Shown here: positions 3,177 through 19,586 of the stretch, in pieces
Numbering within the stretch: position 1 is the first letter of the stretch
Layout: each line of letters begins with the position of its first letter
Assembly (NCBI GenBank): GCA_944376905.1
Contig: CALWEA010000003.1
Span: forward strand, 62,001-126,000
Reading direction: 5' to 3'
From: an uncultured Clostridia bacterium
GTDB taxonomy: Bacteria; Bacillota; Clostridia; Christensenellales; UBA1242
DNA: 64,000 nt
The notes under the pieces: model-generated
Databases searched by the model: none
What the model saw: only the letters and a program-made list of their open reading frames with translations
What the model was told of the DNA's origin: nothing
Translations under genes and position numbers: made by a program

Positions 3177-3227
3177 TTGACATAATCAAATCAAAGTATT
3201 ATAATCTAACCGTCGAACAAATGTTCG
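3177..3227 (+). promoter_or_regulatory. Consensus promoter overlapped by a LexA (SOS) box
   Basis: TTGACA (3177-3182) and TATAAT (3200-3205) are both perfect, with 17 bp between them. The predicted start is near 3212. The palindrome CGAACAAATGTTCG (3214-3227) fits the Gram-positive LexA operator CGAACN4GTTCG and lies directly on the first transcribed bases, a position where LexA would block transcription. The next gene is the sigma-region-4-like regulator at 3382, with a 170-nt leader. DNA-damage induction of this gene is an inference from the site. Confidence 0.8.
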
Positions 3228-3282
3228 AAAAAGCCGATTCAAGCGTAAAAATTCCATACATATATTTTTTTATTATAAATAG

Positions 3283-3333
3283 TTTTGTACAAAATAAATA
3301 GTTTTGTACAAAAATGTAGTGTTTTGTCTAAAA
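3283..3333. promoter_or_regulatory. Three-site palindromic operator array
   Basis: The palindrome TTTTGTACAAAA occurs at 3283-3294 and 3302-3313, and a degenerate third copy, TTTTGTCTAAAA, at 3322-3333. Spacing is 19 and 20 bp, close to two helical turns, so bound proteins would lie on one face. The array is 48 bp upstream of the regulator start codon and within its SOS-promoter leader. This suggests autoregulation or a second repressor. Confidence 0.55.
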
Positions 3334-3336
3334 ATG

Positions 3337-3365
3337 TTGACTTATGTCTTTTAAAAATTTAAGAT
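3337..3365 (+). promoter_or_regulatory. Possible second promoter for the regulator gene
   Basis: TTGACT (3337-3342) and TAAGAT (3360-3365) are spaced by 17 bp, directly abutting the third operator palindrome. It would produce a very short leader starting around the AGGGAGGG ribosome binding site. The -10 box is imperfect. Confidence 0.35.
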
Positions 3366-3381
3366 ATTAAAGGGAGGGATA

Positions 3382-3903
3382 ATGAATAATATTAATATTG
3401 CAAAAACTGCATTCGTCGCATATAGATTTTTAGATAAATTATGTTATTCTGTTGACCAAATTATAAAAAATCGTGCTGTTAATTCTTTTTATGTTTCATC
3501 AAAAAAACCTTTTGAAAATTCTGTTTGGGAAGTTTCTCAAAATATTATTGATTTAATAGATAAAAAAATTGGATTAATTAATTTAAAAATTTTAGTTGAA
3601 AAAATTTTACATAATTTACCTTCTAGATTTGCTCGTTTATTAATTATGAGATATATTGATGGTCAAAAAATGGACTTTATTTTAAATAGATTGCAAATTT
3701 CCGAAAGAACATTTTCGAGAAACACAACTCAGGCTTTGAAATTATCTTTAATGTTTATGAAAAAATATGGTTTTGAGGAAATTAATCTTTTTAATCTTAT
3801 TAAATCAGATAAGTGGATGTTGGGCGTTTATAATGTTTTGTCTGCTAGAAATTTGAATCAAGATTATATTTCTTCTCTTAGTTGTGATGCGCTTCTTAAA
3901 TAA
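3382..3903 (+). CDS. Phage-type sigma-70 region 4-like transcriptional regulator
   Basis: A 173-residue basic protein with no enzymatic motif. Residues about 75-120 (LPSRFARLLIMRYIDGQKMD, then ILNRLQISERTFSRNTTQAL) have the layout of a sigma-70 region 4 helix-turn-helix: a conserved RYI-x-G turn, then a recognition helix with SERTFSR. Small phage late-gene activators (RinA/ArpU/DUF1492 type) look like this. AGGGAGGG precedes the ATG at 3382. Its promoter carries a LexA box and its leader carries three palindromes, so it is the likely control switch for the packaging genes that begin 1.4 kb downstream. It could also be a TerS-type DNA-recognition protein. Confidence 0.55.
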   Translation: MNNINIAKTAFVAYRFLDKLCYSVDQIIKNRAVNSFYVSSKKPFENSVWEVSQNIIDLIDKKIGLINLKILVEKILHNLPSRFARLLIMRYIDGQKMDFILNRLQISERTFSRNTTQALKLSLMFMKKYGFEEINLFNLIKSDKWMLGVYNVLSARNLNQDYISSLSCDALLK

Positions 3904-3970
3904 TTATTTTCTTTTTTTCTTTTTCTATTAATTTTTGTTTAATTCTTCTTTCTTTTGCATAATAATATTT

Positions 3971-5017
3971 TTAATCGTCGTATTCGTAGTATTCACTTTT
4001 TTTCAATTTGTTATATTTTTTCTTATTGCTTTGATTACCGTTATCTAACATTATTTTGGTTGGTTTAAATAGTAGGTAGATTATAAATAAACAAGGCAGG
4101 CAGGCACATATAATTATAATTATTTTTATTTCGTTGGATAATAGAATGGGATTTTCAGGAGAAGTGCTGGTTGGAGTGTTTTTATCTTCAAACAATTCGC
4201 CGTTATAATATTCAACAATTTCTGTATTTGGTGAATAATAGGGCCCTAAATAACAATAAGGTGCATATAAGTACCCATAATAACTATTATTTCCGCTTAG
4301 ATATTTGCAATAATACCATTGTTCTCCTAGTTCTGGAACCATTTCTTCTCCTATTATATCACCATAATATATTAAATTTTTTTCTAGAAATGGTATGTTT
4401 GTTATTATATTAAATGGAGTTATTTCTGGTTTTTCTCTTAAATCTAGTCCAGATAGTGAGTATATACTAAAACTTAAATCATTCGCAAAAGGTTTCATAG
4501 GTTTATTAACAACTGGTTTTACTTCATTTTTTTTTACATAACCATTTTTATCCATGTAGGTTGCCAAATAAAACATATCTTGTTCATCTCCAGCGTTTCC
4601 TGTTAATAATACAAAATATGTTTTAGGAATTTCAAACATCTTATATATATTATTATCTACTGCTTGAGAATAAAAATATATATTTTCAGTTTCTATTCTA
4701 GCATAAAATTGATTTGTTGAATTTAATTCTTGTAATATAAATTTTTGATTATTTTCTTCTTTAATTTTATATTTTTTTTGAATTGCTACTTCATCTAAAT
4801 TTACATTTTGGTTTTCTTTTGTATTTGTTGCTTGGGTGTTGCTTGGCTCTATTTTAAATTTTGTGTTTAATTTATTTTGTTCTTGATTATGTAAAAAAAC
4901 AGTTAAATTATTTGAACTGTTTTTATTTATATTTAAGATAGAAATTGTAATTATACATAAACTTGAAATAACTATTATTAATATTATTTTTAAGATTTTT
5001 ATTATTTCATTTTTCAT
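3971..5017 (-). CDS. Membrane-anchored protein of unknown function (SH3-like central region)
   Basis: I do not recognise a specific family. The 348-residue protein has a hydrophobic N-terminal segment (about residues 8-30), an Asn/Lys/Gln-rich linker, a middle region with aromatic-rich beta repeats (FYARIETENIYFYSQ, YSLSGLDLREKPEITPFN) resembling tandem SH3-like wall-binding folds, a second hydrophobic segment near residues 295-320 and a basic, Lys/Tyr-rich tail. Two membrane segments bracketing an extracytoplasmic domain are likely. It is transcribed against the flanking genes, and its start faces the second four-helix element and terL. Its relation to the phage module is unknown. Confidence 0.6.
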   Translation of the reverse strand: MKNEIIKILKIILIIVISSLCIITISILNINKNSSNNLTVFLHNQEQNKLNTKFKIEPSNTQATNTKENQNVNLDEVAIQKKYKIKEENNQKFILQELNSTNQFYARIETENIYFYSQAVDNNIYKMFEIPKTYFVLLTGNAGDEQDMFYLATYMDKNGYVKKNEVKPVVNKPMKPFANDLSFSIYSLSGLDLREKPEITPFNIITNIPFLEKNLIYYGDIIGEEMVPELGEQWYYCKYLSGNNSYYGYLYAPYCYLGPYYSPNTEIVEYYNGELFEDKNTPTSTSPENPILLSNEIKIIIIICACLPCLFIIYLLFKPTKIMLDNGNQSNKKKYNKLKKSEYYEYDD

Positions 5018-5107
5018 AGTTTTATCATAGCATATATTATTTAAAATTTTTTAACTTTTTATGTTGATTTTTTAGTTTATTTGGAAGTTGTTCAGTTGGT
5101 TTTTGAG

Positions 5108-5183
5108 ATGGCGTCTTTACGAACTGTGTTCGTCTTGCACTGAAAGTGCAAAGCGGATTGGAAACAATCCGCTAAGACGCCAT
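5108..5183. other. Four-helix junction inverted-repeat element, copy 2
   Basis: The 76-nt segment forms a perfect four-way junction. The outer stem is ATGGCGTCTT (5108-5117) with AAGACGCCAT (5174-5183). The hairpins are 5119-5133 (ACGAA/TTCGT, loop CTGTG), 5135-5151 (TTGCAC/GTGCAA, loop TGAAA) and 5152-5173 (AGCGGATTG/CAATCCGCT with a GAAA tetraloop). Thirty pairs form with no mismatch, and only two bases are unpaired at the junction. It stands out as GC-rich in AT-rich surroundings, between a divergent gene pair, 75 bp before terL. The shape matches 1846-1925 although the primary sequences do not align. A GNRA tetraloop favours an RNA role; cruciform DNA is the alternative. Confidence 0.82.
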
Positions 5184-5258
5184 TAATTTTTTAATTTTTA
5201 TAACAACTTTATATTTTATTAATAAAAGATTTTTATAAATAATTATCTGGGAGAGGAT

Positions 5259-6713
5259 ATGAAAGACATTATTTTACAAATTAAAAAAATTGAAAATATT
5301 TTAAATGAAAGAAGGAAAAAAGATAAATTAAAATTTTATAATTCTGGAAGTAAAATACACGAAAAACAAATAGAATTTCATAAAAGTAAAAAAAGAAATA
5401 GATGGGTTTTTGGTGGAAATAGAACAGGTAAAACTGAATGTGGTGCAGTTGAAGTTGTTTGGCTTGCCAGAGGCGTTCATCCTTACAAAAAAAACAAAAA
5501 AAATATAACTGGTTGGGTTGTTTCTGTTTCACGTCAAGTTCAAAGAGATGTTGCTCAAGAAAAAATTTTATATTATCTCAATCCAGATTGGATTGAAGAA
5601 ATTGTTATGCTAGAAGGTAGGAAGGATAGTCCTGAAAATGGAATTATTGATTATATAAAAATAAAAAATATTTTTGGGGGTTATAGCAAAATTGGTTTCA
5701 AGTCTTGTGATCAAGGTCGAGAAAAATTTCAAGGAACAAGTTTAGATTTTGTCTGGTTTGATGAAGAGCCTCCATATGACATTTATTTAGAATGTAAGAT
5801 GAGGGTTTTGGACAAAAAAGGTGAAATTTTTGGAACAATGACTCCTTTAAAAGGTTTGACTTGGGTTTATGATTTAATTTACTTAAATAAATTTAATGAT
5901 GATGAAGTTTTTTATATTTTTATGGAATGGAGTGATAATCCTTTTCTTGATGACGAAGAAATTCGCTTATTATCACAGTCTATTTCTAAATCCGAGTTGG
6001 AGAGTAGATGTTATGGTAAATTTGTTGGTAATGGCGGATTAGTTTATAAAGAATTTGACGAACATATTCATGTTATTGAACCATTCAATGTTCCGCAAGA
6101 TTGGTTTGATATAATATCAATTGACCCTGGCTTACATAATCCGCTTTCTGCTCATTGGTATGCACAAGATTTTGATGGTAATGTTTATGTTATTGCTGAG
6201 CATTATATGGCAGATAAGTCATTAGAATTCCATGCCAACGCAATAAAAGATATTTGCAAAACGTTGAATTGGCCTAAACTTTATAATGGTATGATTTCCG
6301 CTCTTATTGATAGTGCGGCTAATCAACGTACTTTGGCTAGTGAAAAAAGTGTTAGCGAATTATTTTATGATTATGGAATTGCAGTTAATACTTCAATTAA
6401 AAAAGATTTATTTGCTGGTATTAATATGGTTAAAAAGTATTTGTGTAATGCAGAAGGACAAACAAAATTATTTATTTTTAAAAATTGTGTTAATTTAATT
6501 AGAGAGATAAAAGGATATTTTTGGGGAAGTGGTGAAAATCCTACCAAAAAAGATGACCATGCTCTTGATGAATTAAGGTATTACATAATGTTTAATGCGG
6601 AAAAAAATTGTGAGTTTTTTAAAAAGAAAAGTTTAGTTCAAAAGGATAAAGAAAGAAAAATACAATCAAATAGGGAAAAATTAAATTCTAATTATTTTAA
6701 ATTTTTAAATTAA
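5259..6713 (+). CDS. terL: Phage terminase large subunit
   Basis: TerL is the ATP-driven motor and nuclease that packs DNA through the portal into empty heads. The 484-residue protein is full length and intact. The ATPase half has Walker A GGNRTGKT (residues 52-59) and Walker B VWFDEE (about 165-170). The RNase H-like nuclease half has the three acidic positions in IISIDPGL, ALIDSA and KDDHALDELRYY. GGGAGAGG precedes the ATG. Size and motif spacing fit the P22/Sf6-type terminases. A 570-bp AT-rich spacer and then a surface-protein gene follow, rather than the portal gene as usual. Confidence 0.92.
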   Translation: MKDIILQIKKIENILNERRKKDKLKFYNSGSKIHEKQIEFHKSKKRNRWVFGGNRTGKTECGAVEVVWLARGVHPYKKNKKNITGWVVSVSRQVQRDVAQEKILYYLNPDWIEEIVMLEGRKDSPENGIIDYIKIKNIFGGYSKIGFKSCDQGREKFQGTSLDFVWFDEEPPYDIYLECKMRVLDKKGEIFGTMTPLKGLTWVYDLIYLNKFNDDEVFYIFMEWSDNPFLDDEEIRLLSQSISKSELESRCYGKFVGNGGLVYKEFDEHIHVIEPFNVPQDWFDIISIDPGLHNPLSAHWYAQDFDGNVYVIAEHYMADKSLEFHANAIKDICKTLNWPKLYNGMISALIDSAANQRTLASEKSVSELFYDYGIAVNTSIKKDLFAGINMVKKYLCNAEGQTKLFIFKNCVNLIREIKGYFWGSGENPTKKDDHALDELRYYIMFNAEKNCEFFKKKSLVQKDKERKIQSNREKLNSNYFKFLN

Positions 6714-7285
6714 ATAAAATTTTATAATATTTTTAAATTAGAAATGTTTTTAAATATGAAATATTATTAAATTACAAATTTTGTTAAAAATATTGTTAGA
6801 TTATAAATATTTTTTAAATTAGAAATGTTTTTAAAGTTATAATTTTTTATTTTTTTTTTTTTTTACTTACAAGATTGTATACTTTATATTTTATTTACTT
6901 AAATATTTTATTCAAAAATTAAATATTTTTTTATAATGTCTTATTATAAAATTTGTTAATTTTTTGTTTTAATATAAATAAAGATTATATTTGTTTTTTA
7001 TTTTATTTTTGTTAATATGATAATTTTTAAGATTAGTTTTTCCTTCTTTCAATAAAATATATTTTAAATAAATTTGAAGTTATTATGAAATTTTTATTAA
7101 GTTTAATTAATGAAATGGTTTTGTTTTTTTGTTAATTTATTTTTCATTTACTAATTTTTATAACTTTTATTTGTAATTTTGTTATATTATGGTATAATAT
7201 TAAATAGAAATTTATTTTACATTTACATTGATATTAATTTTTAATACAGAATTGTATAAAAAATTATTTGAATTGTGAGGAGTTT
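6714..7285. other. AT-rich spacer with a 25-nt direct repeat and a promoter
   Basis: The stretch is almost pure A/T and contains no gene I can support. A 25-nt sequence (TTTTTAAATTAGAAATG followed by TTTTTAAA) is present at 6730-6754 and again, identical, at 6811-6835. A promoter-like pair, TTGTAA (7171-7176) and TATAAT (7193-7198) at 16 bp, precedes the surface-protein gene. Confidence 0.55.
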
Positions 7286-9505
7286 ATGAAAAATTATAAG
7301 ATTGTTTATTTACCTCTAATTTTTATTTTGGGACTTTTGGTTTCTTATTTTTGTTTTGTAACTTTTAGCAAAAACAATAACTATAATGTTTTTGCTAATA
7401 GTTATATTTCTTTAAATAATGATAATTTTTATCAACAATTAAATGAAAATCCTTCAGGTTCTTTTCAATTAACCCAAGATATCATTCTTAATGATTGGAC
7501 ACCTATTAATTTTAGTGGTGTTTTAGATGGTAATGGTTATACTATTTCCACAAATAAACAACTTTTTATTAATATAAACAATTCTAAGATTTTTGATTTG
7601 GCTATTGAAACTATTGATACCATTGTTTATAACGCAAAAGATAATTTTGCTAATACTAATTTTGGAATTCTTGCTCAAAGTGCTTATAACAGTGATTTTT
7701 CAAGTATAAGTATCAATGGAAGTGTTAGCGTTTCTGCAAAATCTTCAATTGCTGTTGGGTCTCTATTTGGATTTGCTCAAAGTAGTGTTATTTCAAATTG
7801 CTATTCAAACACTAATCTTAAAGTTATTCAATCTTCTTCAGAGGCTCTTCAAACAGTTGTTGGTGGCTTAGTTGGTCAAAGTGTTGCTTGCAAGATTTAC
7901 AATTGTTATACTGTACCGCTAATTGATGAAATTATTAATGTTAATGTTTTAAATAATCTTAATCAACCTAAAACTGATTTGATAATTGGAGGTTTTATTG
8001 GTTTTGTTGAAAAATCTTCTGTTGGTTTAGTAAGTAATTGTTTTTGTGGCGGAAATATAAACTTTAACTATACGCAAGATGAATCAAATAAAAATACTTA
8101 TATTGGTAAAATATTTGGACAGGTTAGTGGTTTTTCTTCTTTGGATAGTTCTTTGTCTTATGTTTATACTTATAATTCTTCAAATTTTGATTTTATTGGC
8201 AAAACAAATAATGTTGTTTTTAATTGTTTTCAACAAAAGGACATTGCATTATTTGGTGAACGCTCTAATTTTGAAACATACAATAATGAAAATTTACAAT
8301 GGAATGTTATTTATCAATGGAATTTAACAGATATTTGGACTAAAAACAATAATTCATCTTTTTTGGTTTTACAAGTGTTTGAATTCTTTACAATCAATCT
8401 AGACCAAACTTTAAATGATGAGGGTATTTCTTCATCTTTATTGATTTTGCAAAATGAACAATATATCCAAACCAATGAACTTAAATTTAAGTATGGAGAA
8501 AAACTTCGTATTAGTTTGGCAATAACTCCTGAATTTAGTAACTATAAAATTGTTCAATCTTTAATTAAAACTGATAGCAATGATTCTTTGATTTTAAATT
8601 ATCAAAATAATAGAAATTCTGCTTATTTTGATTTCATTGTCAATGCACAAACTGCTGGTTTATATTATGCAACTGCGGAAAGTATTGAATATTCTCTTAT
8701 TGTTAAAACAGAAAATATTGAACATGGATTTGTTAAATATGGGACTTCTAGTACTAATCAAGAAAAGATAACCTATTCTGTTGTGTACGGCGGGGAATAT
8801 ACTTTTGTTGCTGATCCTATTGATAGTTCCTTTGCTTTTGGTGGATGGTATTGGGTTGACTATAAAGATGACGGTTCTTTTGAAACTATTTTAGCAACTA
8901 GAGGGGAAGTGGACAGTGGGCTTTTGGCTAACCGTTCTATAACCATTGCATTTGGTGAACAGGGAACTTCTGCAAGTGTTACTTATTTGGGCTTGGGCGA
9001 AGGATTTAATATTCCTTATCAAGTTGGACAAGACGGAAAAGTAACTTTTACAATTCAGGCTGGTTTTACTCAAAATGTTGCTAATTTAAAAATTATTTCT
9101 AATTTAGACGCTGATGCTTTTAATTTATATGTTGGTGGTGTATTGGTTAGTAATATTGTTGATTTTATAAACCTATATGACAGTAGTATTCAAATAGGAA
9201 GACCAATTTTAATAAGTGTTGAAATGAAAGAGGGATACATTTTTGATGGGTGGAGTGCTTCAAGTGGATTATCTCTTGATGATAAACTCGCTGAGGGGGA
9301 AAGTTCAAAATCAACTTCTATAAATTTAACAATTAATAATGATTTTGTTTTAGAAGTTTCCGCTCATGCCGAAGTTGACCCTGTTACAAGTCTTTTGTGG
9401 TTATGGATTTTACTTGGTTGCTTGGGTGCAGGAGGACTCATTACACTTATTGTTATTTTTAGTGTTAGGGCTAAAAGACGCAGAAGTTTTATAAATAATT
9501 ATTAA
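7286..9505 (+). CDS. Large anchored cell-surface protein (GLUG/InlB-like repeats)
   Basis: The 739-residue protein begins with a signal-anchor segment (about residues 8-26). It continues with repeats of the GLUG type (VGGLVGQSVACKIYNCYTV and IGGFIGFVEKSSVGLVSNCF are examples) and beta-rich modules with FGGWYW and FDGWS signatures that recall InlB/Listeria-Bacteroides repeats. A C-terminal transmembrane helix (LLWLWILLGCLGAGGLITLI) followed by AKRRR would hold it in the membrane with the repeats outside; no LPXTG motif is visible. The ATG at 7286 follows GAGGAG. It lies between terL and the portal genes on its own promoter, so it is either a lysogenic-conversion (moron-like) gene or an unrelated insertion. 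Confidence 0.7.
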   Translation: MKNYKIVYLPLIFILGLLVSYFCFVTFSKNNNYNVFANSYISLNNDNFYQQLNENPSGSFQLTQDIILNDWTPINFSGVLDGNGYTISTNKQLFININNSKIFDLAIETIDTIVYNAKDNFANTNFGILAQSAYNSDFSSISINGSVSVSAKSSIAVGSLFGFAQSSVISNCYSNTNLKVIQSSSEALQTVVGGLVGQSVACKIYNCYTVPLIDEIINVNVLNNLNQPKTDLIIGGFIGFVEKSSVGLVSNCFCGGNINFNYTQDESNKNTYIGKIFGQVSGFSSLDSSLSYVYTYNSSNFDFIGKTNNVVFNCFQQKDIALFGERSNFETYNNENLQWNVIYQWNLTDIWTKNNNSSFLVLQVFEFFTINLDQTLNDEGISSSLLILQNEQYIQTNELKFKYGEKLRISLAITPEFSNYKIVQSLIKTDSNDSLILNYQNNRNSAYFDFIVNAQTAGLYYATAESIEYSLIVKTENIEHGFVKYGTSSTNQEKITYSVVYGGEYTFVADPIDSSFAFGGWYWVDYKDDGSFETILATRGEVDSGLLANRSITIAFGEQGTSASVTYLGLGEGFNIPYQVGQDGKVTFTIQAGFTQNVANLKIISNLDADAFNLYVGGVLVSNIVDFINLYDSSIQIGRPILISVEMKEGYIFDGWSASSGLSLDDKLAEGESSKSTSINLTINNDFVLEVSAHAEVDPVTSLLWLWILLGCLGAGGLITLIVIFSVRAKRRRSFINNY

Positions 9506-9823
9506 AAAAACAAAATAAATTTTATATTCAAAACATTTAAATTATTTTAATTAAAAATATTATATATAAATTAAAAAAGTTATTTAAATCAATTAAAAAT
9601 ATAAAAGTTTTATAATTTAAAAATAAAAAAAATAATAAAGATTTCAACAAAATAAAAATTTAAATAAAAGCAATATTAAATAATAATTTTGTTATATAAA
9701 ATTAATATTTTTTATGTTTAAAAATTAGTATTTTATATTAATAAACTTACATTGAAAAATATTAAAATTATAAAAAATTAAAATTATATTTTTAATTATT
9801 AAAATATTTATTATAAAAATTAT

Positions 9824-9838
9824 TGACTGAAAATATTG
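9824..9838. repeat. TGACTGAAAATATTG motif, copy 2
   Basis: The bases are identical to 3112-3126. In this copy the motif runs into the -35 region of the promoter for the packaging genes, which makes an activator-binding role plausible. Confidence 0.45.
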
Positions 9839-9863
9839 ATTTACTTAAATTTGTTGATATAAT
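9836..9863 (+). promoter_or_regulatory. Promoter for the head genes
   Basis: TTGATT (9836-9841) and a perfect TATAAT (9858-9863) are spaced by 16 bp. Transcription would start about 25 bp before the hairpin at 9897. Confidence 0.55.
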
Positions 9864-9896
9864 ACTTTTGGATAAAAATTTTATCTATTTTAATTC

Positions 9897-9930
9897 AACT
9901 CGCAAGACAATTTGTCTGGCGAGTTTTTTA
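9897..9930 (+). terminator. Leader terminator/attenuator before the TerS-like gene
   Basis: AACTCGC-A-AGACA (9897-9909) pairs with TGTCT-G-GCGAGTT (9913-9925) around a tiny loop, with one A-G mismatch, and is followed by a T run. It lies between the promoter and the first gene of the head operon, so it should stop most transcripts unless antitermination occurs. Confidence 0.65.
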
Positions 9931-9953: not shown

Positions 9954-10253
9954 ATGAAAAATTTAAAATCACAGGAGAAAAAAATAAAAAACGCCTTAAT
10001 CAAAAAGGCAACAGGATATGATGCTGATGAAATTATGGAGGAATATTCTGTTAATGAAGATGGAATACAACATCTTTCTAAACGCAGAGTTTCAAAAAAG
10101 CATTTTGCACCTGATATTTCTGCGATTAAACTGTTTTTAAGTTATTGGAATGAACATTCTTTAAATGAATTGGAGAAAATGAGTGATGAAGAACTTATTG
10201 AAGAGCGTAATAAACTTATAAAATTATTGGAAGAAAAAACAATTAAAAAATAG
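9954..10253 (+). CDS. Terminase small subunit-like protein
   Basis: A 99-residue charged protein. The stretch ALIKKATGYDADEIMEEY followed by VSKKHFAPDISAIKLFLSYW matches the segment found near the C-terminus of many phage small terminase subunits (an AL-x-K-A-x-GY motif, then a PD-x-SAI-x-x-L motif). The N-terminal HTH part common in full TerS proteins is missing, so it is either a short family form or a truncated one. The start follows AAGGA. It lies 120 bp before the portal gene. TerS normally binds the packaging start site and feeds DNA to TerL. Confidence 0.5.
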   Translation: MKNLKSQEKKIKNALIKKATGYDADEIMEEYSVNEDGIQHLSKRRVSKKHFAPDISAIKLFLSYWNEHSLNELEKMSDEELIEERNKLIKLLEEKTIKK

Positions 10254-10373: not shown

Positions 10374-12227
10374 ATGAATAATAAAAATAATCAAATTAGT
10401 GAAGAAGAATTGGCGGAAAAATTATTAATAGAAGATGTTTGTGCTGATTTTGAAAAGCGTCAAACTCAAAGACGCAGTTTTGAAACTCAATGGGCGTTAA
10501 ACATGAATTTTTTAATAGGAAATCAATTTTGTAATGTTTCACCAGCAGGTGAATTATCAACAATAGAAAAACATTATAATTGGCAACATCATGATGTTTA
10601 TAATCATATTGCACCTATTATTGAAAGAAGATTATCTAAACTCCAAAGAGTTAGACCTGTTATTAATGTTTTTCCTGCTTCTGGTGATGATAGAGATGTT
10701 AAAACTGCCAAAGTTACTAAAAAAATCATTAATTCTGTTTATAATAAAAATGATATGACAAAAACTATTGCGGAAGTAACACAATGGAGTGAGATTTGTG
10801 GAACAGGTTTTTACAAAATTATTTGGAATAGTGGAAAGGGTATGAAAGTTGCTAAAACAGAGTTTGGGAAAGAGGTAAAATCTGGTGATGTTGACATTAT
10901 TCCTATTTCTCCTTTTGAAATTTTTCCAGAAAGTTCTTCAATTACAGACATTTCAAATTCTCGTAGTTTAATTCATGCAAGGGCTTATCATGTTGATGAA
11001 ATTAAAAATCAGTGGGGCGTTGATATAAAGGGATGTGATGTTAATGTTTTTACTTTAGATAAATGTTTTACATTGGGATATGTTGAAAAATCTGCTAGCA
11101 TACAAAGTACTCGTTCCAATTATGCTATTGTTATTGAGCGTTATGAGGCGCCTAGTATTAAATTTCCTAATGGGCGTTTAGTTATTGTTTGTGAGGATAA
11201 ACTCCTTTTTGTTGGAGAACTTCCTTATATTAATGGAACTGATGGCTCTCGGGTTTTTCCTTTTGTTCGCCAGGTTTCATTATCTCAACCTGGTTGTTTT
11301 TGGGGGTTGAGTATTATCCAACGCCTTATTCCTTTACAAAGAACTTTTAATGCAATTAAAAATCGTAAACATGAATTTTTGAACAGGTTATCAATGGGAG
11401 TTTTAACTGTTGAAGATGGGTCTGTTGATTTAGATGAACTTGAAGATGAAGGATTAAAGCCTGGTAAAGTTTTAGTTTATAGAAATGGTGCGAATCCTCC
11501 TAAATATATGCAAAATGATTCTATTCCGTTTAATTTTACAACAGAAGAAGAAGCAATTTTAGAAGAATTTGCTAGTTTAAGTGGAGTGTCTGATTTTTCA
11601 AGCAACAATTATTTAACTAAAAATTTAAGTGGTGTTGCTCTTGAATTGTTGATAGAACAAGATGAAAGTAAAATTGTTACAACTTCTGAAAGTATTAAAG
11701 ATGCAATTAAAGAAATTGCTAAACAAACTTTAAGATTATATAAGCAATTTGTTAAAATACCAAAATTAACAAAAATTATTGGTGATAATGGTGAAATGGA
11801 GATTTTTTATTTCACTTCAAGTGATATTACAACTGATGACATTGTTTTTGAAACAAAAGATGAAGCAGGAGAAACTTTTAGTCAGCGTCGTAATATGGTT
11901 TTTGAACTGTTAAATGCTGGCTTATTTTCTGATGAGAATGGCAAAATTTCTAATAGAATGAAAACCAAGATTTTAGATATGATTGGTTTTGGGGTTTGGG
12001 AAAACACTCAAGATTTAGAAGAATTACATATTGCAAGAGCAGGTAAGGAAAACTTAATGTTTTTAAATCTTCAATCATCAAATATTTTGCCAATTGATGA
12101 CCATAAAATTCATATTAATGAACATACAGCATTTGTTTTAGGCGGAGAAATTGAAAATCTCTCAGAAAAAGATGCTATAATCCAAAATTTATTAAAACAT
12201 ATAGAAGAACATAAAAAGAGAATTTAA
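10374..12227 (+). CDS. Phage portal protein (P22-like)
   Basis: The portal forms a dodecameric ring at one capsid vertex, through which TerL pumps DNA. The 617-residue protein resembles the long podovirus/P22-type portals: an N-terminal helical start with RRSFETQWALNMNFLIGNQF, a HDVYNHIAPIIERRLSKLQR segment, VCEDKLLFVGELPYINGTDG in the clip/wing region and a long C-terminal helix (ESIKDAIKEIAKQTLRLYKQ). GGAGATT precedes the ATG. The gene appears undamaged. The scaffold gene starts 55 bp downstream. Confidence 0.85.
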   Translation: MNNKNNQISEEELAEKLLIEDVCADFEKRQTQRRSFETQWALNMNFLIGNQFCNVSPAGELSTIEKHYNWQHHDVYNHIAPIIERRLSKLQRVRPVINVFPASGDDRDVKTAKVTKKIINSVYNKNDMTKTIAEVTQWSEICGTGFYKIIWNSGKGMKVAKTEFGKEVKSGDVDIIPISPFEIFPESSSITDISNSRSLIHARAYHVDEIKNQWGVDIKGCDVNVFTLDKCFTLGYVEKSASIQSTRSNYAIVIERYEAPSIKFPNGRLVIVCEDKLLFVGELPYINGTDGSRVFPFVRQVSLSQPGCFWGLSIIQRLIPLQRTFNAIKNRKHEFLNRLSMGVLTVEDGSVDLDELEDEGLKPGKVLVYRNGANPPKYMQNDSIPFNFTTEEEAILEEFASLSGVSDFSSNNYLTKNLSGVALELLIEQDESKIVTTSESIKDAIKEIAKQTLRLYKQFVKIPKLTKIIGDNGEMEIFYFTSSDITTDDIVFETKDEAGETFSQRRNMVFELLNAGLFSDENGKISNRMKTKILDMIGFGVWENTQDLEELHIARAGKENLMFLNLQSSNILPIDDHKIHINEHTAFVLGGEIENLSEKDAIIQNLLKHIEEHKKRI

Positions 12228-12282: not shown

Positions 12283-13548
12283 ATGAAAAATAAAAGTATT
12301 AGGGAACAACCTTTTGGGCAAATTTCGCAAACTGTTAATACAGAGGGTGAGAAGGAAAACTTTTTAGAATTCCAAGATTTAGAAATTGGCGATAATTTGA
12401 AAAAAGGCTCCCTAGGAAAATTTAAAAACACTGAAGCTTTACTTTCTGCCTATAACAATTTGCAGGCGGAATTTACTCGCAAGTGTCAAAAATTAAAACT
12501 ATTAGAAAATCAAATTAATTCAAATCTAATAGATAATGACCAAGATGTGCAAAATCAAAATTTGGTTAATGAAAGTGCTCAAAATATTATTGATGATAAA
12601 ATACAATTAAAAAATAACGATGAGGAAGTTAAACCAATTATTTTTAATATTGATTCTTCTAAAATTATTAATAAATCTTCAAAACCTATTTTAAATTCTG
12701 ATAATGAAAATAATAATGAAGATGTTGAAAGCAAAAATTCAATTGCTATGCAGTTTCTTGATGAAAATAAATTTAAATCATTTACTTGTAAAGATAATAA
12801 TTGTGATAACTTGGCTCAAAAACAAAAAATTGAAAAAGGGAATACCGTAGCATCATGTTCTTTGAATAATGATTTTGATATTCAAAATACTTTTGATGAT
12901 GTTTTAACCACAGATAGTCAGTTAACCAATTGTTTAAACGATAAATCTCAAAAAAGTTATATTCAAGAGACTTTATCTCCTAATAGTATTAATAATGCTA
13001 TTAATATTCAAAATAATCAAGATAAAAATGATTTTAGTACGGTTGTTGATGATGCAAACGAAAATGGTGAAAGTAATTTAGATTATGTAAATCAAGAACA
13101 AACTACATCTCAAAAAATAAATGATGAAGAACCGCAAATTTATAGTTCATATAATCAAGAACTGCAAGACAATTTAAACGATAATTTTCAAGAAAAAAAC
13201 AATATTAATAACTTCAATAAAAGAAATGATAGTTTAAGCGATTTAAGTCATAATACTTCAAAAAGCAATCCATACTTTAATTTGTTTGATGAAAATAAAA
13301 ATATTGGCGAATTAGACAAGCAACATTATGAAAATCTTTTTAAAGATAAACAATTTTTAGAAAAATTTATTCAATCAAATAAAAGTATTCGAGATTCTAT
13401 TGTTATTTCTTATCTAGAAGAAATTATGAAAACTAACTCTCCAAAAGTTATTGGAGAAACAATTTCAAGTGGAATTGTTCTTGGTAAACCTCCTCGTCCA
13501 CAAAATTTAGATGAGGCAAAAGATATTGTTACTCAAATTTTTTCATAA
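12283..13548 (+). CDS. Phage capsid scaffolding protein
   Basis: Scaffolding proteins direct coat assembly and leave the procapsid. The 421-residue protein has the typical N-terminal signature GKFKNTEALLSAYNNLQAEF followed by a coiled-coil (TRKCQKLKLLENQ), and a conserved C-terminal end (GKPPRPQNLDEAKDIV) of the kind that binds coat protein. Between them are about 230 residues of Asn/Asp/Gln-rich low-complexity sequence, which is unusually long and probably disordered. Its location between portal and major capsid genes supports the assignment. Confidence 0.8.
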   Translation: MKNKSIREQPFGQISQTVNTEGEKENFLEFQDLEIGDNLKKGSLGKFKNTEALLSAYNNLQAEFTRKCQKLKLLENQINSNLIDNDQDVQNQNLVNESAQNIIDDKIQLKNNDEEVKPIIFNIDSSKIINKSSKPILNSDNENNNEDVESKNSIAMQFLDENKFKSFTCKDNNCDNLAQKQKIEKGNTVASCSLNNDFDIQNTFDDVLTTDSQLTNCLNDKSQKSYIQETLSPNSINNAINIQNNQDKNDFSTVVDDANENGESNLDYVNQEQTTSQKINDEEPQIYSSYNQELQDNLNDNFQEKNNINNFNKRNDSLSDLSHNTSKSNPYFNLFDENKNIGELDKQHYENLFKDKQFLEKFIQSNKSIRDSIVISYLEEIMKTNSPKVIGETISSGIVLGKPPRPQNLDEAKDIVTQIFS

Positions 13549-13628: not shown

Positions 13629-14849
13629 ATGGCAGTTACTTTACAAAATGCAGAATCTGCATTAAAAAGCGTTTATCTTGGTGTTGTTGCAAATCAGTTA
13701 AACGTTAAGGCTAATCCTTTACTTTCTAGCATTAAACAATCTAGTTCTAATGTTTGGGGAAAGGAAATAATAAAACTTGCACCATTTGGAATTAATGGTG
13801 GTATTGGTGCTGGAAGTGAAGATGGACTTTTACCTATGGCAGGAAGCAATAAATATGTTCAATTTAAAAGTTCTTTAAAAAATTTATTTGGAAAAATTGA
13901 AATTTCAGATAAAGCAATTCGTGCGTCAGAAAATAATGCTGGTGCATTTGTTAATCTTCTTAATGATGAAATGGAAGGTCTTATTAAAGCAAGTTCCTTT
14001 AATCTTGGCAGAATGTTGTATGGTGATGGAAGTGGTTTACTTACAACAACTTCATCTGCTATAACAACTTCAGGAACTACAACCTTTTTAACAGTTAATG
14101 ATACTCGTAATCTTATAGAAGGTATGATTATTGATGTTTATTCTTCAGGAACTAAAAATTTAGATTATAGTGGTCGAAGAATAACATTTATTGATAGAGA
14201 AAATAAAAAAGTTTATTTAGATTTACCTACTGATAACAACAAGGCATTAGCTCAAAATGCTGAACTTTATGTTCAAGGCTCAAAAGGCTATGAAATAACT
14301 GGCTTGGAGGCAATTTTTGGGACAGGTAATCTTTATGGGCTTAACAGAACAGAACATCAATGGTTAAAACCTTATATCTCTAATCCTGGATCTGCTGTTG
14401 AAATTAGTGACATTCTTCTTCAAAAAACTATTGATGCTCTTGAAGACAAGGCAGGTAGTGAAATTAATTTTATTGCTTGTTCTCGTGATGTTAGACGTGC
14501 TTATCAAGAATATTTAACATATTATAAAAGAAATGTTGATGTTACAGAACTTGCAGGCGGACAAAAAGCTATTACTTTTAATGGAATACCATTGGTTGCT
14601 GATAGATTTATTGCTGATGGAACTTTATATATGCTTAATACAAATGATTTTACATTACATCAACTTTGCGATTGGAATTGGCTTGAAAATGAAGATGGTA
14701 AAATTTTGCGTCAAAATGGAACTTATCCAACTTATAGTGCGACGTTGGTTAAATACGCAGATTTAATTTGTGATAGACCTATCGCTCAAGCTAAATTGAC
14801 AAATATTAGTTCAAGTGTTACTAATCCTTTTGCAAGTGTTACAGAATAA
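13629..14849 (+). CDS. Major capsid protein (HK97-fold, P22-like)
   Basis: The 406-residue protein is the head shell subunit. The early region (AESALKSVYLGVVANQLN, FKSSLKNLFGKIEISDKAI) and the internal insert between about residues 140 and 200 (GTTTFLTVNDTRNLIEGMII) match the pattern of N4/P22-type capsid proteins. The C-terminal portion includes IPLVADRFIADGTLYMLNTN, common at the end of HK97-fold coats. No N-terminal protease-cleaved domain or Prp-like site is evident. A 15-bp hairpin 70 bp after the stop probably terminates much of the transcript. Confidence 0.88.
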   Translation: MAVTLQNAESALKSVYLGVVANQLNVKANPLLSSIKQSSSNVWGKEIIKLAPFGINGGIGAGSEDGLLPMAGSNKYVQFKSSLKNLFGKIEISDKAIRASENNAGAFVNLLNDEMEGLIKASSFNLGRMLYGDGSGLLTTTSSAITTSGTTTFLTVNDTRNLIEGMIIDVYSSGTKNLDYSGRRITFIDRENKKVYLDLPTDNNKALAQNAELYVQGSKGYEITGLEAIFGTGNLYGLNRTEHQWLKPYISNPGSAVEISDILLQKTIDALEDKAGSEINFIACSRDVRRAYQEYLTYYKRNVDVTELAGGQKAITFNGIPLVADRFIADGTLYMLNTNDFTLHQLCDWNWLENEDGKILRQNGTYPTYSATLVKYADLICDRPIAQAKLTNISSSVTNPFASVTE

Positions 14850-15220
14850 TTTATTATTTTCTTATATTATTTTGTATTATTTTTAATGTTTGTTATAAAT
14901 AGTTTTTTTCTTATTTTATAAATATATATTTAGATTAATATCTAAATATATATTTTTTAATTTAATTTTTCTTAATATTTGTTTTAATTTAAATTAATTT
15001 AATTTTTAATAATTTTTTATAAATTTTTATATTTTTTTATAATTTTTAAGTTATTATATTTAAATTTAATTACTTCTTTATTTTAATTGTTTCTTTATTT
15101 TAATTATTTTATTTAATTATTTTTTATATATAATTTAATATTTATTATAAAAATTTTTAATAATTATTAAACATCTTAAAAAAAGAACTATTTGAACAAA
15201 CAGAATTAAAAGGTTAAAAA
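14850..15220. other. AT-rich spacer in the head operon
   Basis: Apart from the hairpin at 14921-14956, this 371-bp stretch is low-complexity A/T with no gene I can support. Confidence 0.5.
14921..14956 (+). terminator. Hairpin terminator after the capsid gene
   Basis: A perfect 15-bp stem (14921-14935 with 14940-14954) around TAAT is followed by a T run. It would limit expression of the connector genes relative to the coat gene. Confidence 0.7.
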
Positions 15221-15541
15221 ATGATTATTAAAATAGAAACAGATGTTTATTTTATTGCTCAACGATTGCGTGGAATTGATAATAATTATTTTGTCGTTTA
15301 TAACACAAAAACAAAAAAATATGAAATTCATTATTCTGGACAGATTGGGGGTAGTTTTTGTTTAAGTCTTCCTTATGATGTCTTAGATGAGAGAGCAATT
15401 GAAATGGTTTATAAGACAAAAATAGAAAATGCAAAAAATCTTTTTAATGAAATTGAAAAAGATAATCAATTAAAAATTAAAAAACAACAAAATCAAACTG
15501 TTGAAAATTTTAAAACTTTATTAAAGGAGGGTGTTTTATGA
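15221..15541 (+). CDS. Small conserved phage head-region protein
   Basis: A 106-residue protein with no named function known to me. It begins with a compact beta-rich section (TDVYFIAQRLRGIDNNYFVV, then YNTKTKKYEIHYSGQIGGSF) and ends in a charged coiled-coil. Proteins of this type occur beside capsid and connector genes in clostridial podoviruses. The stop overlaps the next start (ATGA at 15538), so translation is coupled. It may be a head-completion or capsid-decoration protein. Confidence 0.55.
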   Translation: MIIKIETDVYFIAQRLRGIDNNYFVVYNTKTKKYEIHYSGQIGGSFCLSLPYDVLDERAIEMVYKTKIENAKNLFNEIEKDNQLKIKKQQNQTVENFKTLLKEGVL

Positions 15542-16341
15542 AGGTTATTGATGTTATTGAAGATACTCTTATATTGTTGAATAAGAAAACACTTTTAGAA
15601 AAGGTGCAACAGTATAAATTAGAAAATCAAGATGATACTAGTGCATTATTAGGAAATATTTTATCTAAATCTATTTCCCCATCAATTGAAGACGGTTCCA
15701 TGTCTTTAAATAATGTAGAAGATGGTGGCAATATTGAAAATAGTATAAATACTGTAAATAGTGAAGATGGAGAAAGTGTTGCAAATAATGATAGTGAGGT
15801 AGATGGAGAAGAAGATGGAACAGGTATTGTTTCAATCTTTGATGAAAATGATTTAAATGAATTAGATATTTTAGTTAGATGTTTTAATTTGGTTTATTCG
15901 GAAATTTGTGTTTATTTTTTACCTTTAATTAAAGAAGAAATTGTTATTTTTAATAATAACAGATTTTATTTCAATACTTTACAAAAAAACATTTTAGAAG
16001 CATTAACATTACAAGATAGTTATGGAAATAAATTAAAATTTAGACAAAATTTTGATTATTTACTTTGTTTAGATTGTAAAGACAATAAAAATTTTCCAGC
16101 AATTTTATCTTATTCTTACTATCCTGATGTTTTAATGCTTGAAAATGATATTCAACTTCCAACTAACAAACTTTCTTCTTATCTTTTTGCATTTGGTGTT
16201 GCTCGCGAATTTTGCGTTCTTGAAGAAGACTTTGAAAATGCTGATATTTGGTCTATTCGTTTTGAATCTGGTTTGCAAAATTTAATTCAATCTACTTCTA
16301 TGCAAAAATCTTTTAATTTAAAAGAGCGGAGGTGGGAATAG
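15538..16341 (+). CDS. Putative head-tail connector / head-completion protein
   Basis: A 267-residue acidic protein placed where P22-like phages encode the tail accessory factor (gp4-like). The C-terminal half (FNLVYSEICVYFLPLIKEEI, LKFRQNFDYLLCLDCKDNKN, LFAFGVAREFCVLEEDFENA) has the helix-loop-helix look of a connector subunit. An acidic, Asn/Ser-rich insert covers about residues 45-100 (NSEDGESVANNDSEVDGEED) and has no obvious counterpart. The start overlaps the previous stop and its own stop overlaps the next GTG, giving a tightly coupled trio. The functional assignment rests mainly on position. Confidence 0.5.
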   Translation: MKVIDVIEDTLILLNKKTLLEKVQQYKLENQDDTSALLGNILSKSISPSIEDGSMSLNNVEDGGNIENSINTVNSEDGESVANNDSEVDGEEDGTGIVSIFDENDLNELDILVRCFNLVYSEICVYFLPLIKEEIVIFNNNRFYFNTLQKNILEALTLQDSYGNKLKFRQNFDYLLCLDCKDNKNFPAILSYSYYPDVLMLENDIQLPTNKLSSYLFAFGVAREFCVLEEDFENADIWSIRFESGLQNLIQSTSMQKSFNLKERRWE

Positions 16342-17906
16342 TGGCATACTTTTTTAACTCTAAAAAAATTTTAGACAATAAAAAAAGTGAGAATAATGAT
16401 AAAAGTAATCTTGATACTGCAAAATTGTCAAATTTAAAAAAATCTTCAATTAAATATTTTTCATTAAATCTTTTTGATAAGCCTGTTAAGTATAAAGTTG
16501 GCGATGAACAGCGTAAAGATTTTGAGGCGGAGTCTTGTTATAATTACAATTCTCAAAGTGGAATTTTAAAAAATGGTGTTGGTTTTGAAACTGCTCTTTA
16601 TCCCACCTCTGAAAGTGGGGAGGAATATCACACCGTTAATATGCCACATACAGGTGATATAAAAAAAATATGGTATTATCCTTATTACGAAACAAACAAT
16701 AATAGAAGAGTTGATAAAATTATTTTTTATGGAACTGATAACCAACTTTGGACTTTTGCTTTATTTTATCCAGGACAAAGTGTTGTTTCTATGCTTGATG
16801 AGGAATTTGGAATTACTCTTTCTAAACTTCCTGTTGGGTTAAGTTATAGAATTTACAACGAAGATTTTATGCTTTTTTCAACTGAAAATGGTTTAATTGC
16901 TTATACAACTCATCTTTTACCTGGTATTTATAATAATTGTCCAGAATTTATTTCTATGACTAAAATTTATGATTTGCTTTGGGCTATTCCTCAGGGTGAT
17001 AGAAACAAGGTTATTTATAATGAAGATTTAAATCCTATTCAGTGGGATAGTGAGAATCAAAAATTTGATTTAAGTGAATTTGGTCAACTTTGTAAACTTA
17101 TCAATTTTGATGACTATTTATTTGTTTTTCGTGATTATGGAATAACTAAAATTTCTCGATATGGAACAGGAGGTAATTTTAGTGTAAGTAATATTTACGA
17201 TTCTGGTTCTAGAATTTATGCCGACACTATTTGTGTTACTGGTGATGATATTACTTTTTTTACAGATGATGGTTTATATGTTTTTAATGGGAGTAGTTGT
17301 AAACCGCTAAGATTGGGCTTTGAATCTCTTATTAAAAAGGATAAAAATAAACAATCTTGTGCAACTTGGCTAAATGGTAAATATTATTTGGCTTGTTATT
17401 TGTCTTTTGATGATGGAAAACAGATTGGTTGCGAAAGTCAAGAAGACGGTTTTATTAATAATGCCTTGGTTTGTATTGACCCAATTTCATCTTTTTATTC
17501 TATAACTCGAGGGGTTGATATTTGTTCTTTAACTTCTGTCTCGGCTGGAATTTATTCCGAAGTTTTGGCTTCTTTTAATGGTAGCAAGTCACAAGAAATT
17601 GGAATGATTAGAGAAAACGGTTCTTTTTTTGATTCTCTTTTATCAAGTTATTATAAAAGTAAAACAACTGATTTTGGATTTATGAAAAAAACAAAAAAGA
17701 TTAAATCTTTTAAAATTAAATCTTTATATGATTGTAAAATAAATATTTGCAGTGATAAAGAAAATCAAATAATTGAAGTTGTTGGTAAAAATTCTTGGCA
17801 AACTATTAAATGTAATGTCAAAGGTGAAACTTTTTTCTTCGAAATTTCTTCTGTTGGTGTTGCTCAAATTTATCCTCCTAAATTTGAAGTTCAAATTTTC
17901 GATTAA
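16341..17906 (+). CDS. Packaged-DNA stabilisation (P22 gp10-like) protein
   Basis: A 521-residue beta-rich protein with regularly spaced blades (KIIFYGTDNQLWTFALF, DLLWAIPQGDRNKVIYNED, DDYLFVFRDYGITKISRYGT, DDITFFTDDGLYVFNGSSCK), as expected for a beta-propeller. P22 gp10 and its relatives form such a propeller ring that closes the portal after packaging. I chose GTG at 16341, 8 bp after GGAGG and overlapping the upstream TAG; the in-frame GTG at 16332 overlaps the Shine-Dalgarno sequence itself. In podoviruses a needle and tailspike gene would follow, but none is present here. Confidence 0.55.
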   Translation: MAYFFNSKKILDNKKSENNDKSNLDTAKLSNLKKSSIKYFSLNLFDKPVKYKVGDEQRKDFEAESCYNYNSQSGILKNGVGFETALYPTSESGEEYHTVNMPHTGDIKKIWYYPYYETNNNRRVDKIIFYGTDNQLWTFALFYPGQSVVSMLDEEFGITLSKLPVGLSYRIYNEDFMLFSTENGLIAYTTHLLPGIYNNCPEFISMTKIYDLLWAIPQGDRNKVIYNEDLNPIQWDSENQKFDLSEFGQLCKLINFDDYLFVFRDYGITKISRYGTGGNFSVSNIYDSGSRIYADTICVTGDDITFFTDDGLYVFNGSSCKPLRLGFESLIKKDKNKQSCATWLNGKYYLACYLSFDDGKQIGCESQEDGFINNALVCIDPISSFYSITRGVDICSLTSVSAGIYSEVLASFNGSKSQEIGMIRENGSFFDSLLSSYYKSKTTDFGFMKKTKKIKSFKIKSLYDCKINICSDKENQIIEVVGKNSWQTIKCNVKGETFFFEISSVGVAQIYPPKFEVQIFD

Positions 17907-18141
17907 TATTTTGTATTGATTATTTATTCAATTGTTCAACGTGGGAGATGTTTTTTTGCTTTTCATAAATAAACTTATTTTAATACCATAGACTATGTTT
18001 TCTTTTGTTACATAGATTATTTTTATTTTTTAATCTTATAAACTTTGTTAATTTTGTTTAACCTTAAAATATTATATTTTTAATCATAAGTAATAATTTT
18101 TTAAGTCTTATATTTTTTATTTAATATTGTTTGAGGATTTT

Positions 18142-18339
18142 ATGCGGAGTAGTAAACATTTTTTTAAAAACATTTTGTTTAATAATTTTAAAAGTGATTT
18201 TTTAATTTTAAGATATAAAAATTTTTCAAATTGTCATTGTTTTTATTGTAAGTTTTCTTCTAACTTAATAAAAAATAAAATTGATTTTATTAAACGAAAG
18301 CAAAGACAATTTAAAGGCAATAAAACATGGAAGATATAA
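18142..18339 (+). CDS. Small basic hypothetical protein
   Basis: A 65-residue, Lys/Phe-rich peptide with a central cysteine cluster (NCHCFYCK). The ATG follows TGAGGA by four bases, and its end overlaps the holin start by 13 bp, which supports translation. No family recognised. It could be a small membrane-associated or metal-binding phage protein, or a leader peptide coupling holin synthesis. Confidence 0.4.
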   Translation: MRSSKHFFKNILFNNFKSDFLILRYKNFSNCHCFYCKFSSNLIKNKIDFIKRKQRQFKGNKTWKI

Positions 18340-18566
18340 TTAACATTGTTATAAGTAACGGAGTTTTTGCAACTTTATTTGTTTGGTTACTGTTTTATCA
18401 ACTTAAAGATAGTTCTAAAAGAGAACAAAAATATATTGCAACAATAGAAAAACTTTCTAAACATCTTGATATTGTTGAAGAACTTAAAGAAGATTTAACG
18501 GAAATTAAACAATCGTTAATTAAAAATTCAAAAGGTGATAATAATGAAACTTCAAGAAAGAATTAA
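18327..18566 (+). CDS. BhlA/UviB family holin-like protein
   Basis: A 79-residue protein with one N-terminal transmembrane helix (IVISNGVFATLFVWLLFYQL) followed by a charged coiled-coil (EKLSKHLDIVEELKEDLTEI). This is the standard layout of the BhlA/UviB holin family, which perforates the membrane to release bacteriocins or phage particles. It overlaps both neighbours: the small basic gene upstream and the second holin downstream. No endolysin gene is found with it. Confidence 0.85.
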   Translation: MEDIINIVISNGVFATLFVWLLFYQLKDSSKREQKYIATIEKLSKHLDIVEELKEDLTEIKQSLIKNSKGDNNETSRKN

Positions 18567-19008
18567 GTCGTATAAATTTTGGGTTGGTCTTTCAGCATCT
18601 TTGGTTTTTGTTTTACAGTGGATTGGTAAGGCTTTTGGGTTTGAAATTTCTGCTGAAATTGTTAATGGTATTACTATGGGATTTTGTTCTGTTTTAATGG
18701 TTTTTGGATTTGTTGAAAAACCTAATAAAAAGCAAAATAATGATTCAAACGAAGCAGTTTCTATTGATAATACATCAGAAATTTCGTCAAATGATGAAAA
18801 AGAAGTTGCTTTAAATAATTTATCAAAAATTTCTTTAAATAATTTAAAAAAGACTAATACGAATGATGTGTTAGAAAGTACAACAATTGACGAATTGTCG
18901 GTTAATACAAGCAATACGTCTAATAATGAAAATTTTAATAATAATTTATCTTCACAAACTAAAAATAGTTATGATGTGATTGAGGTTTATGATGAAGATA
19001 AAAATTAA
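18544..19008 (+). CDS. Phage holin (phi-LC3/Hol44-like) with Asn/Ser-rich tail
   Basis: The 154-residue product begins MKLQERIKSYKFWVGLSASL, the hallmark of the phi-LC3-type holins (a KxxxFW start followed by two transmembrane helices, here about residues 12-30 and 42-58). A soluble tail of about 90 Asn/Ser/Thr-rich residues is extra relative to the family. AAAGGTG supports the ATG at 18544; the in-frame GTG at 18535 lies in that ribosome binding site. The overlap with the BhlA gene implies co-translation. Two holins without an endolysin suggest the lytic enzyme is encoded elsewhere or is supplied by the host. Confidence 0.8.
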   Translation: MKLQERIKSYKFWVGLSASLVFVLQWIGKAFGFEISAEIVNGITMGFCSVLMVFGFVEKPNKKQNNDSNEAVSIDNTSEISSNDEKEVALNNLSKISLNNLKKTNTNDVLESTTIDELSVNTSNTSNNENFNNNLSSQTKNSYDVIEVYDEDKN

Positions 19009-19586
19009 AACATAAAAATTTTGAATGTTATTTGTTTATAAAACGAGATTGCTAATAAAGATAATAATGTGGGTTAAAGAGTTAAAATTTAATAAATTAT
19101 TTATTTAAAAAATTTTAATTTTTATTAAACATATTTAATAATAAAATAAAGGTGTTTAATTTTTTTTAAATCTATATTATTTGAATTTGTTATTATGATT
19201 AACTATTTGTTAAAACTTAAATGATAATTTAACAATAAAAGTAACATATGATGGTTAGTTGTGAAAATTATAGGAGTGGAAAGATTTTTTCTGCTCCTTT
19301 TTTTATTTTTATTGTATGTCTTATTAGATTTTTATTTATTTTGTTTTTAAAATACATTAGTTTATGTTTTTGCATTTTACTTTACAAAATAAATGGTTAA
19401 TGATATAGTAAAAATATAAACAAGAGTTATTATGTATGATTATTATGTGTGATTATTATTAATTAGTGTTGTTGAAAATTTTTAAATAATTTTTAATTAA
19501 AATTTTCTTAATTATATGTTAAAATTAAGTAAATTATAAACTAATTGACATTGTATACTAATTTGAAAAATTTTATTGAGGTAAAA
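19009..19586. other. Intergenic region at the distal end of the phage-derived module
   Basis: This 578-bp AT-rich stretch carries the module terminator (19272-19306) and otherwise only low-complexity sequence. I looked for an att-like duplicate of sequence near the left end (1.8-3.2 kb) and saw none. Confidence 0.5.
19272..19306 (+). terminator. Terminator after the holin genes
   Basis: AGGAG (19272-19276) pairs with CTCCT (19294-19298). An inner GAAA/TTTC stretch also pairs, and a long T run follows. It marks the right end of the module transcript. Confidence 0.75.

Follow-up and report, generated by a model that had tools for sequence, protein, structure and literature searches.

The window analysed here is a 64,000-nucleotide stretch of DNA from an uncultured Clostridia bacterium of the order Christensenellales (lineage UBA1242; assembly GCA_944376905.1, contig CALWEA010000003.1, positions 62,001 to 126,000). 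It contains a cluster of about 16 kb, with a promoter (3177) at its start and a terminator (about 19305) at its end, that probably represents a domesticated podovirus kept as a gene transfer agent (GTA)-like particle locus. The source genome is 1.37 Mb in size (completeness 96%), and the GC content of the window is about 25%. Gene families were assigned by hmmscan on the basis of PHROG and Pfam matches, and two proteins without a family match were folded with AlphaFold2 from alignments of relatives and then searched with Foldseek.

An earlier note on this DNA, made from the letters and open reading frames alone, had named a large terminase (TerL), a TerS-like small terminase, a portal, a major capsid protein (MCP) and two holins, and family matches agreed at the same positions (Table 1), with a phage_holin_1 protein and a BhlA-like protein at the end. 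The scaffold it proposed, whose frame is open like those of the others, was upheld by position and by a C-terminus conserved in relatives, but not by a family match. The module had also been described as lacking a tail, which proved wrong: the predicted folds are those of a podovirus-type head-to-tail adaptor and a P22 gp10-type tail nozzle, and the module therefore encodes a minimal short tail besides the head and packaging motor. The PHROG and Pfam scans of the module's open reading frames recognised no gene for an integrase, a repressor, an endolysin or replication, and the module is not framed by a long direct repeat, much as the note had reported for integrase, replication and endolysin genes and for att repeats; the notable repeat is internal (3105 and 9817).

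Table 1. Features of the cluster, in order of position in the window (E-values follow family names; TM, transmembrane segment; HTH, helix-turn-helix).
Feature	Position	Strand	Evidence or remark
Copy 1 of promoter-like repeat, ATGACTGAAAATATTG-N17-GATAAT	3105..3149	+	upstream of regulator gene; 43-nt repeat of 9817-9859, 79%
Perfect sigma-70 promoter, TTGACA-N17-TATAAT	3177..3205	+	sequence
LexA operator, CGAACAAATGTTCG	3214..3227	+	just past -10 box; 0 mismatches; chance 0.18 per window at 1 mismatch
ArpU/RinA-like late regulator (sigma-region-4-like), LexA-controlled gene	3382..3903	+	phrog_36 3.3e-8, phrog_248 1.7e-6; position conserved
Membrane protein (signal peptide, apparent SH3-like repeats, C-terminal TM)	3971..5017	-	omega 0.065
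Large terminase TerL (ATPase and nuclease)	5259..6713	+	phrog_2 2.8e-33, PF03237
Surface-anchored repeat protein between TerL and TerS	7268..9505	+	weak PF09479; signal peptide, C-terminal TM
Late promoter of structural operon, TTGACTGAAAATATTG-N19-TATAAT	9817..9863	+	motif shared with regulator upstream regions
Intrinsic terminator in leader, late promoter to TerS	9897..9930	+	-15.2 kcal/mol, z -5.1, then T6
Small terminase TerS without N-terminal HTH DNA-binding half	9954..10253	+	phrog_309 1.9e-5, match confined to 194-260 of 319
Portal, P22 type	10374..12227	+	PF16510 2.1e-21, phrog_156 1.2e-38
Scaffold-like protein	12283..13548	+	position and C-terminus conserved in relatives; no family match
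MCP	13629..14849	+	phrog_14242 5.2e-57
g7, small conserved protein	15221..15541	+	weak phrog_4324; position conserved
Head-to-tail adaptor, podovirus type, 267 aa	15538..16341	+	AlphaFold2 pLDDT 79.6; Foldseek SU10, Pa223, N4 and T7 adaptors, best E 6e-6
Tail nozzle/hub, P22 gp10 type, 524 aa	16332..17906	+	AlphaFold2 pLDDT 82.5; Foldseek Pa223 tail 4e-20, P22 gp10 4e-14
BhlA-like small membrane protein	18327..18566	+	phrog_2429 1.1e-17
Holin (phage_holin_1)	18535..19008	+	PF04531 3.7e-5, phrog_297 2e-8
Module-end terminator	19272..19305	+	hairpin -13.6 kcal/mol with T-run

The terminase retains its enzymatic parts and lacks its specificity part. The Walker A and B motifs and the acidic nuclease residues of TerL were invariant across 18 sequences, in keeping with the intact catalytic motifs that had been read from the single sequence. 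The TerS of the window has 99 residues, and those of 16 aligned relatives have 80–127; in the alignment their first residues correspond to the start of the C-terminal half of phage TerS, and all 17 lack the HTH. A homologue from a faecal phage (L222:3830-4387, 185 aa) carries a 60-residue N-terminal extension with an apparent HTH, which precedes the common segment KRALGFEYTEKETEY...KYFAPDVGAL. Unselective packaging is expected to show itself in a TerS that has lost site recognition, and gp1 of the known GTA RcGTA likewise starts without a DNA-binding domain or HTH (PMC6854486).

We found TerL in 7 of the 8 genomes of the window's genus and in 275 of the 297 genomes of its family, covering 41 of 42 genera, nearly always as one copy and at 63–71% identity. 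These genomes are mostly metagenome-assembled, and a missing gene may reflect assembly loss. Across the order, 243/393 good genomes, in 70/135 genera, had a match to the MCP profile, mostly at E<1e-100 and in single copy, with named matches including Christensenella sp. UBA1242, Ca. Onthoplasma, Ca. Fimimonas and Ca. Borkfalkia. Three loci (L035, L036 and L047), representing some genera, carry the MCP gene in tandem duplicate, possibly encoding two capsid proteins.

The genes recur in a conserved order, namely the regulator (forward strand), the membrane protein (reverse strand), TerL, TerS, portal, scaffold, MCP, g7, adaptor and nozzle, followed by variable fibre-like genes and a DUF7934 gene, where present, and then by BhlA and holin; single losses occur. 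This order was common to families f3, f17, f26 and f13 at GC contents of 37–53%, and the GC of the locus tracks that of the host over a range of 25–63%. The locus at 63% GC (L152) has a DUF7934 protein (5448-6446) whose apparent N-terminal LysM domain, seen in one family, hints at cell-wall binding.

In the window's genus, the cluster lies between L1-L21-prp-rpmA and pdp, with the upstream part of this setting in loci L033 and L034 and pdp downstream in L033. The chromosomal site is fixed within genera and different between them: the shared rpmA-to-pdp location that the earlier note asked about was found within the genus, other genera have other fixed loci, and a single flanking site for the whole family was rejected. 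In several families, the cluster is followed downstream by RNase J and one membrane protein, which likely mark an older site there. In genus g34, the regulator–TerL half and the TerS-to-holin half are 40–55 kb apart and both intact, as exemplified by G103, where a single contig carries them at 152 and 207 kb. Split halves that are both kept are unlike an intact phage, which could not be inherited so, and like known GTAs, which are. In about 19 loci (L066-L074 and similar, probably from g34), the structural half adjoins comEC-like and holA-like genes, named by eye. Known GTAs depend on Com proteins for uptake by recipients.

Every gene of the cluster is under purifying selection, an outcome that the earlier note had proposed looking for. 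Median omega (NG86; non-overlapping close pairs, 29 at most) was 0.035 for TerL, 0.072 for the portal, 0.092 for MCP, 0.125 for the nozzle, 0.167 for TerS, 0.180 for the adaptor and 0.253 for the scaffold. Gene trees were compared with that of RpoB from the same 21–28 genomes, together with a Mantel test (2000 permutations). The portal tree had 14 of 20 splits in common with RpoB, including all eight strong ones, with no strong conflicts, and its distances correlated with those of RpoB at r 0.62 (0.81 within the family; reached in 0/2000 permutations). The adaptor and nozzle gave Mantel values similar to the portal's and had few splits in common with RpoB.

Control by the SOS response, claimed from the window alone, is borne out by the perfect sigma-70 promoter and the perfect LexA box that follows it. 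The exact form CGAACN4GTTCG occurs once in the genome, at this operator. A LexA box (at most two mismatches, in the 300 bp before the regulator) was present in 37/49 loci, compared to 44/685 control genes, with a p value of 2e-29 that overstates significance because the loci are related. Moreover, lexA itself is preceded by the same motif in most genomes examined, here as CGAACATTTGTTTG, and the box is mostly missing from genomes in which no LexA match was found (Fisher p=0.017; exception G330). The gene behind the operator matches phrog_36 and phrog_248, a regulator type that we take to be ArpU/RinA.

A second promoter motif appears to tie the regulator operon to the TerS operon. Specifically, TGACTGAAAATATTG occurs in the window only at 3112 and 9824 (the chance of two matches at up to two mismatches being 15/100), and an unbiased repeat search recovered the same pair of repeats. 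The form TTGNCAGTNNNTATTG-N19-21-TATAAT, derived from TerS upstream regions, preceded TerS in 16/60 loci, a set that includes those on which it was defined, and preceded the regulator in 7/53 loci versus 7/505 controls (p=1e-4); its copies in the window are at 9823 and, in weaker form, at 3111. Strict terminators stood between the late promoter and TerS in 7/33 loci, compared with 9/180 controls. The leader terminator would fit antitermination, though as a suggestion only, by analogy with CcGTA, which has dedicated transcription control through activation and anti-termination (PMC11150451).

Upstream of TerL, no conserved motif was found across loci. A structured RNA or pac element there was rejected as a candidate, the hairpin array having no Rfam match and not being conserved in relatives. 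In the window, this array (5107-5184, between the membrane protein gene and TerL) resembles a four-way junction, with GGCGTCTT...AAGACGCC around three hairpins (-43 kcal/mol, z -8.7).

From these features, a course of events can be proposed in which DNA damage would lift LexA from the promoter at 3177-3227, so that the regulator is produced and would in turn activate the structural operon from its promoter at 9817-9863, perhaps via antitermination through the leader terminator. Small heads would be built from scaffold, MCP and portal, and TerL, together with a TerS devoid of the site-recognising HTH, would load them with unselected chromosomal DNA. The adaptor and nozzle would then seal the head as a short tail, the cell would be lysed by the holins together with an endolysin that was not found here, and the particles may deliver their DNA to sister cells.

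We consider the cluster to be a vertically inherited, domesticated podovirus, that is, a GTA-like particle locus of Christensenellales, with a probability of roughly three in four (0.76). The earlier note had listed this option, and conservation, vertical inheritance, purifying selection, locus splitting and the HTH-less TerS back it. Six formal criteria for GTAs have been set out (PMC9662315), and the three that genomes can test describe the cluster: its structural genes are caudoviricete-derived (by the TerL, portal and MCP families and the adaptor and nozzle folds), it is fully endogenised and sometimes in several loci (chromosomal in all genomes seen, split in g34), and it is mostly inherited vertically with host co-diversification (best for the portal, weaker and with some conflicts for TerL and MCP). 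The other three criteria concern the particle itself: a content of mostly random host DNA, to which the HTH-less TerS speaks indirectly, own genes that cannot all be packaged, the cluster here being ~16 kb, and delivery of the packaged DNA to other cells. We therefore call it GTA-like and stop short of calling it a proven GTA.

Several observations weigh against this assignment. The evidence is genomic, with particle formation, random packaging, lysis and DNA delivery to sister cells inferred from it, and the motif counts cover related loci that are phylogenetically non-independent. TerL is missing in about 7% of family genomes, some of them near complete (G040). In the window's genus, no endolysin or recognisable fibre gene was found, and the DUF7934 coiled-coil gene carried by many relatives was found in 0/8 genomes by a search that had no positive control. 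Additionally, TerL had a Mantel r of 0.47 and six strongly supported splits in conflict with RpoB, and MCP distances track RpoB weakly (r 0.29), with tandem copies in some genera. The TerL conflicts and weak MCP correlation suggest that some genes were exchanged between lineages, and the trees together point to mainly vertical descent with some recombination.

PBSX of Bacillus subtilis is domesticated, SOS-induced and packages host DNA, with a contractile tail and a different control. The present cluster is likewise domesticated and SOS-linked, and its products could be SOS-induced particles of a similar or tailocin-like kind that pack host DNA without delivering it, and that kill competitors or are merely released at lysis. 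The SOS control, the lysis genes and the fact that no receptor-binding protein was identified in this genus fit such a role, yet the cluster encodes a podovirus adaptor and nozzle in place of a contractile tail, and the nuclease and ATPase residues of TerL are strictly conserved, so that we regard it as improbable. The same possibility was raised for FpGTA, beside which PBSX is discussed (PMC12946183). Another use of the particle by the host, such as DNA protection or programmed lysis as a phage defence with transfer incidental, would suit the conserved DNA-damage control and lysis cassette and the delivery parts that differ between genera; it appears quite unlikely, as conservation of terminase, portal and nozzle is hard to explain without DNA packaging and exit.

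The earlier note's two other options fared worse. A capsid-forming satellite, akin to capsid-forming phage-inducible chromosomal islands, would make its own heads and borrow helper tails, and the head genes and terminase, at first sight without a full tail, resemble one. However, the module has its own adaptor and nozzle, neither integrase nor framing att repeats nor other signs of mobility, a single vertically inherited copy and a TerS without the specificity domain, making this very unlikely. A recently reduced or decaying prophage would account for phage-derived genes between housekeeping genes and for the absent replication genes, but it is scarcely credible given retention, mostly as a single copy, in 41/42 genera, low omega, open frames, host-like GC and the keeping of both split halves, and for the family overall it already stands refuted. 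Nor were integration, replication and repressor genes recognised beside the head genes, as in a complete temperate phage; such genes were found around a relative, the clostridial prophage L135.

The closest parallel to the GTA-like cluster appears to be FpGTA of Faecalibacterium (described in January 2026), with 40 nm capsids, 8.4–8.9 kb of random host DNA, an HTH-less TerS and podovirus-like proteins (PMC12946183); its MCP and portal have the accessions RCH50849.1 and RCH50851.1. Both are compact phage-derived operons with TerL, portal, scaffold and MCP and no replication genes, both have a TerS without a DNA-binding domain and podovirus-type short-tail proteins, and both belong to Gram-positive gut hosts with the genes in more than one locus. 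In contrast, TerS lies upstream of TerL in FpGTA and after it here, no LexA control is reported for FpGTA, and FpGTA is described from one genus whereas this cluster comes from a large part of an order. The likeness is drawn from the published description of FpGTA and, on our side, from the genes; a Faecalibacterium 16S probe had no match in the class genome sample, from which nothing follows on homology.

RcGTA and CcGTA (Rhodogtaviriformidae and relatives) resemble the cluster in vertical inheritance across an order and in a cluster (there of ~15 kb) plus other loci, and differ in their long-tailed siphovirus architecture. Their known direct controllers are GafA and GafYZ, whereas here a LexA operator lies at the regulator gene.

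Very few GTAs have known genes, nearly all of them alphaproteobacterial, and among Gram-positive bacteria only PBSX and, since 2026, FpGTA are named (PMC12946183). We found no description of the present cluster in the literature covered, which leaves out most subscription journals and preprints. We think it somewhat better than an even bet that this is an undescribed, order-old GTA lineage of Christensenellales, of podovirus type, under direct LexA repression, with a dedicated activator or antiterminator that drives separate operons by way of a late promoter common to them, and that it serves to share DNA, on an SOS trigger, among streamlined gut bacteria, most of them uncultured. Short random packaging has been seen in Christensenellaceae with no operon reported (PMC12946183), and the cluster offers candidate genes for it. 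With a readable SOS switch and a mostly single-copy cluster conserved in dozens of genera from one gut order, in hosts that form a large family of tiny-genome gut Clostridia plus many members of the wider order, the question of why bacteria keep GTAs becomes testable through LexA, TerS and nozzle mutants and comparative loss patterns.

Two further genes lie within the module. The membrane protein, whose SH3-like repeats were called by eye with no Pfam match, was found in all 17 of the TerL-positive genomes tested and in 2 of the 13 TerL-negative ones. Homologues of the repeat protein hold the same TerL–TerS position in more than 20 loci of several genera, and this protein is probably not a particle part.

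Beyond the order, the portal profile matched 14 class genomes, among them ordinary prophages with unrelated TerL. Jasminevirus-like and Shocker-like podoviruses and the clostridial prophages L135 and L144 share the order of portal and MCP, the portal being of P22 type and both proteins homologous; the isolated phages are only 23–31% identical, and the prophages have other TerL types, L135 also having an integrase, an SSB and a TerS of its own in the vicinity. A homologous portal also occurs within a small group of genes that includes no matching MCP or TerL (L136-L139, families f94 and f64; similar place in 3/3 f64 loci examined), perhaps another domesticated element, which we set aside as different from the main cluster. 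Finally, a complete 5 Mb clostridial genome (G1009) had two equal-scoring portal matches 63 kb apart (C1, about 1961116, where the surroundings were read, and 2023887), which appear to be relatives of the ancestral phage type.

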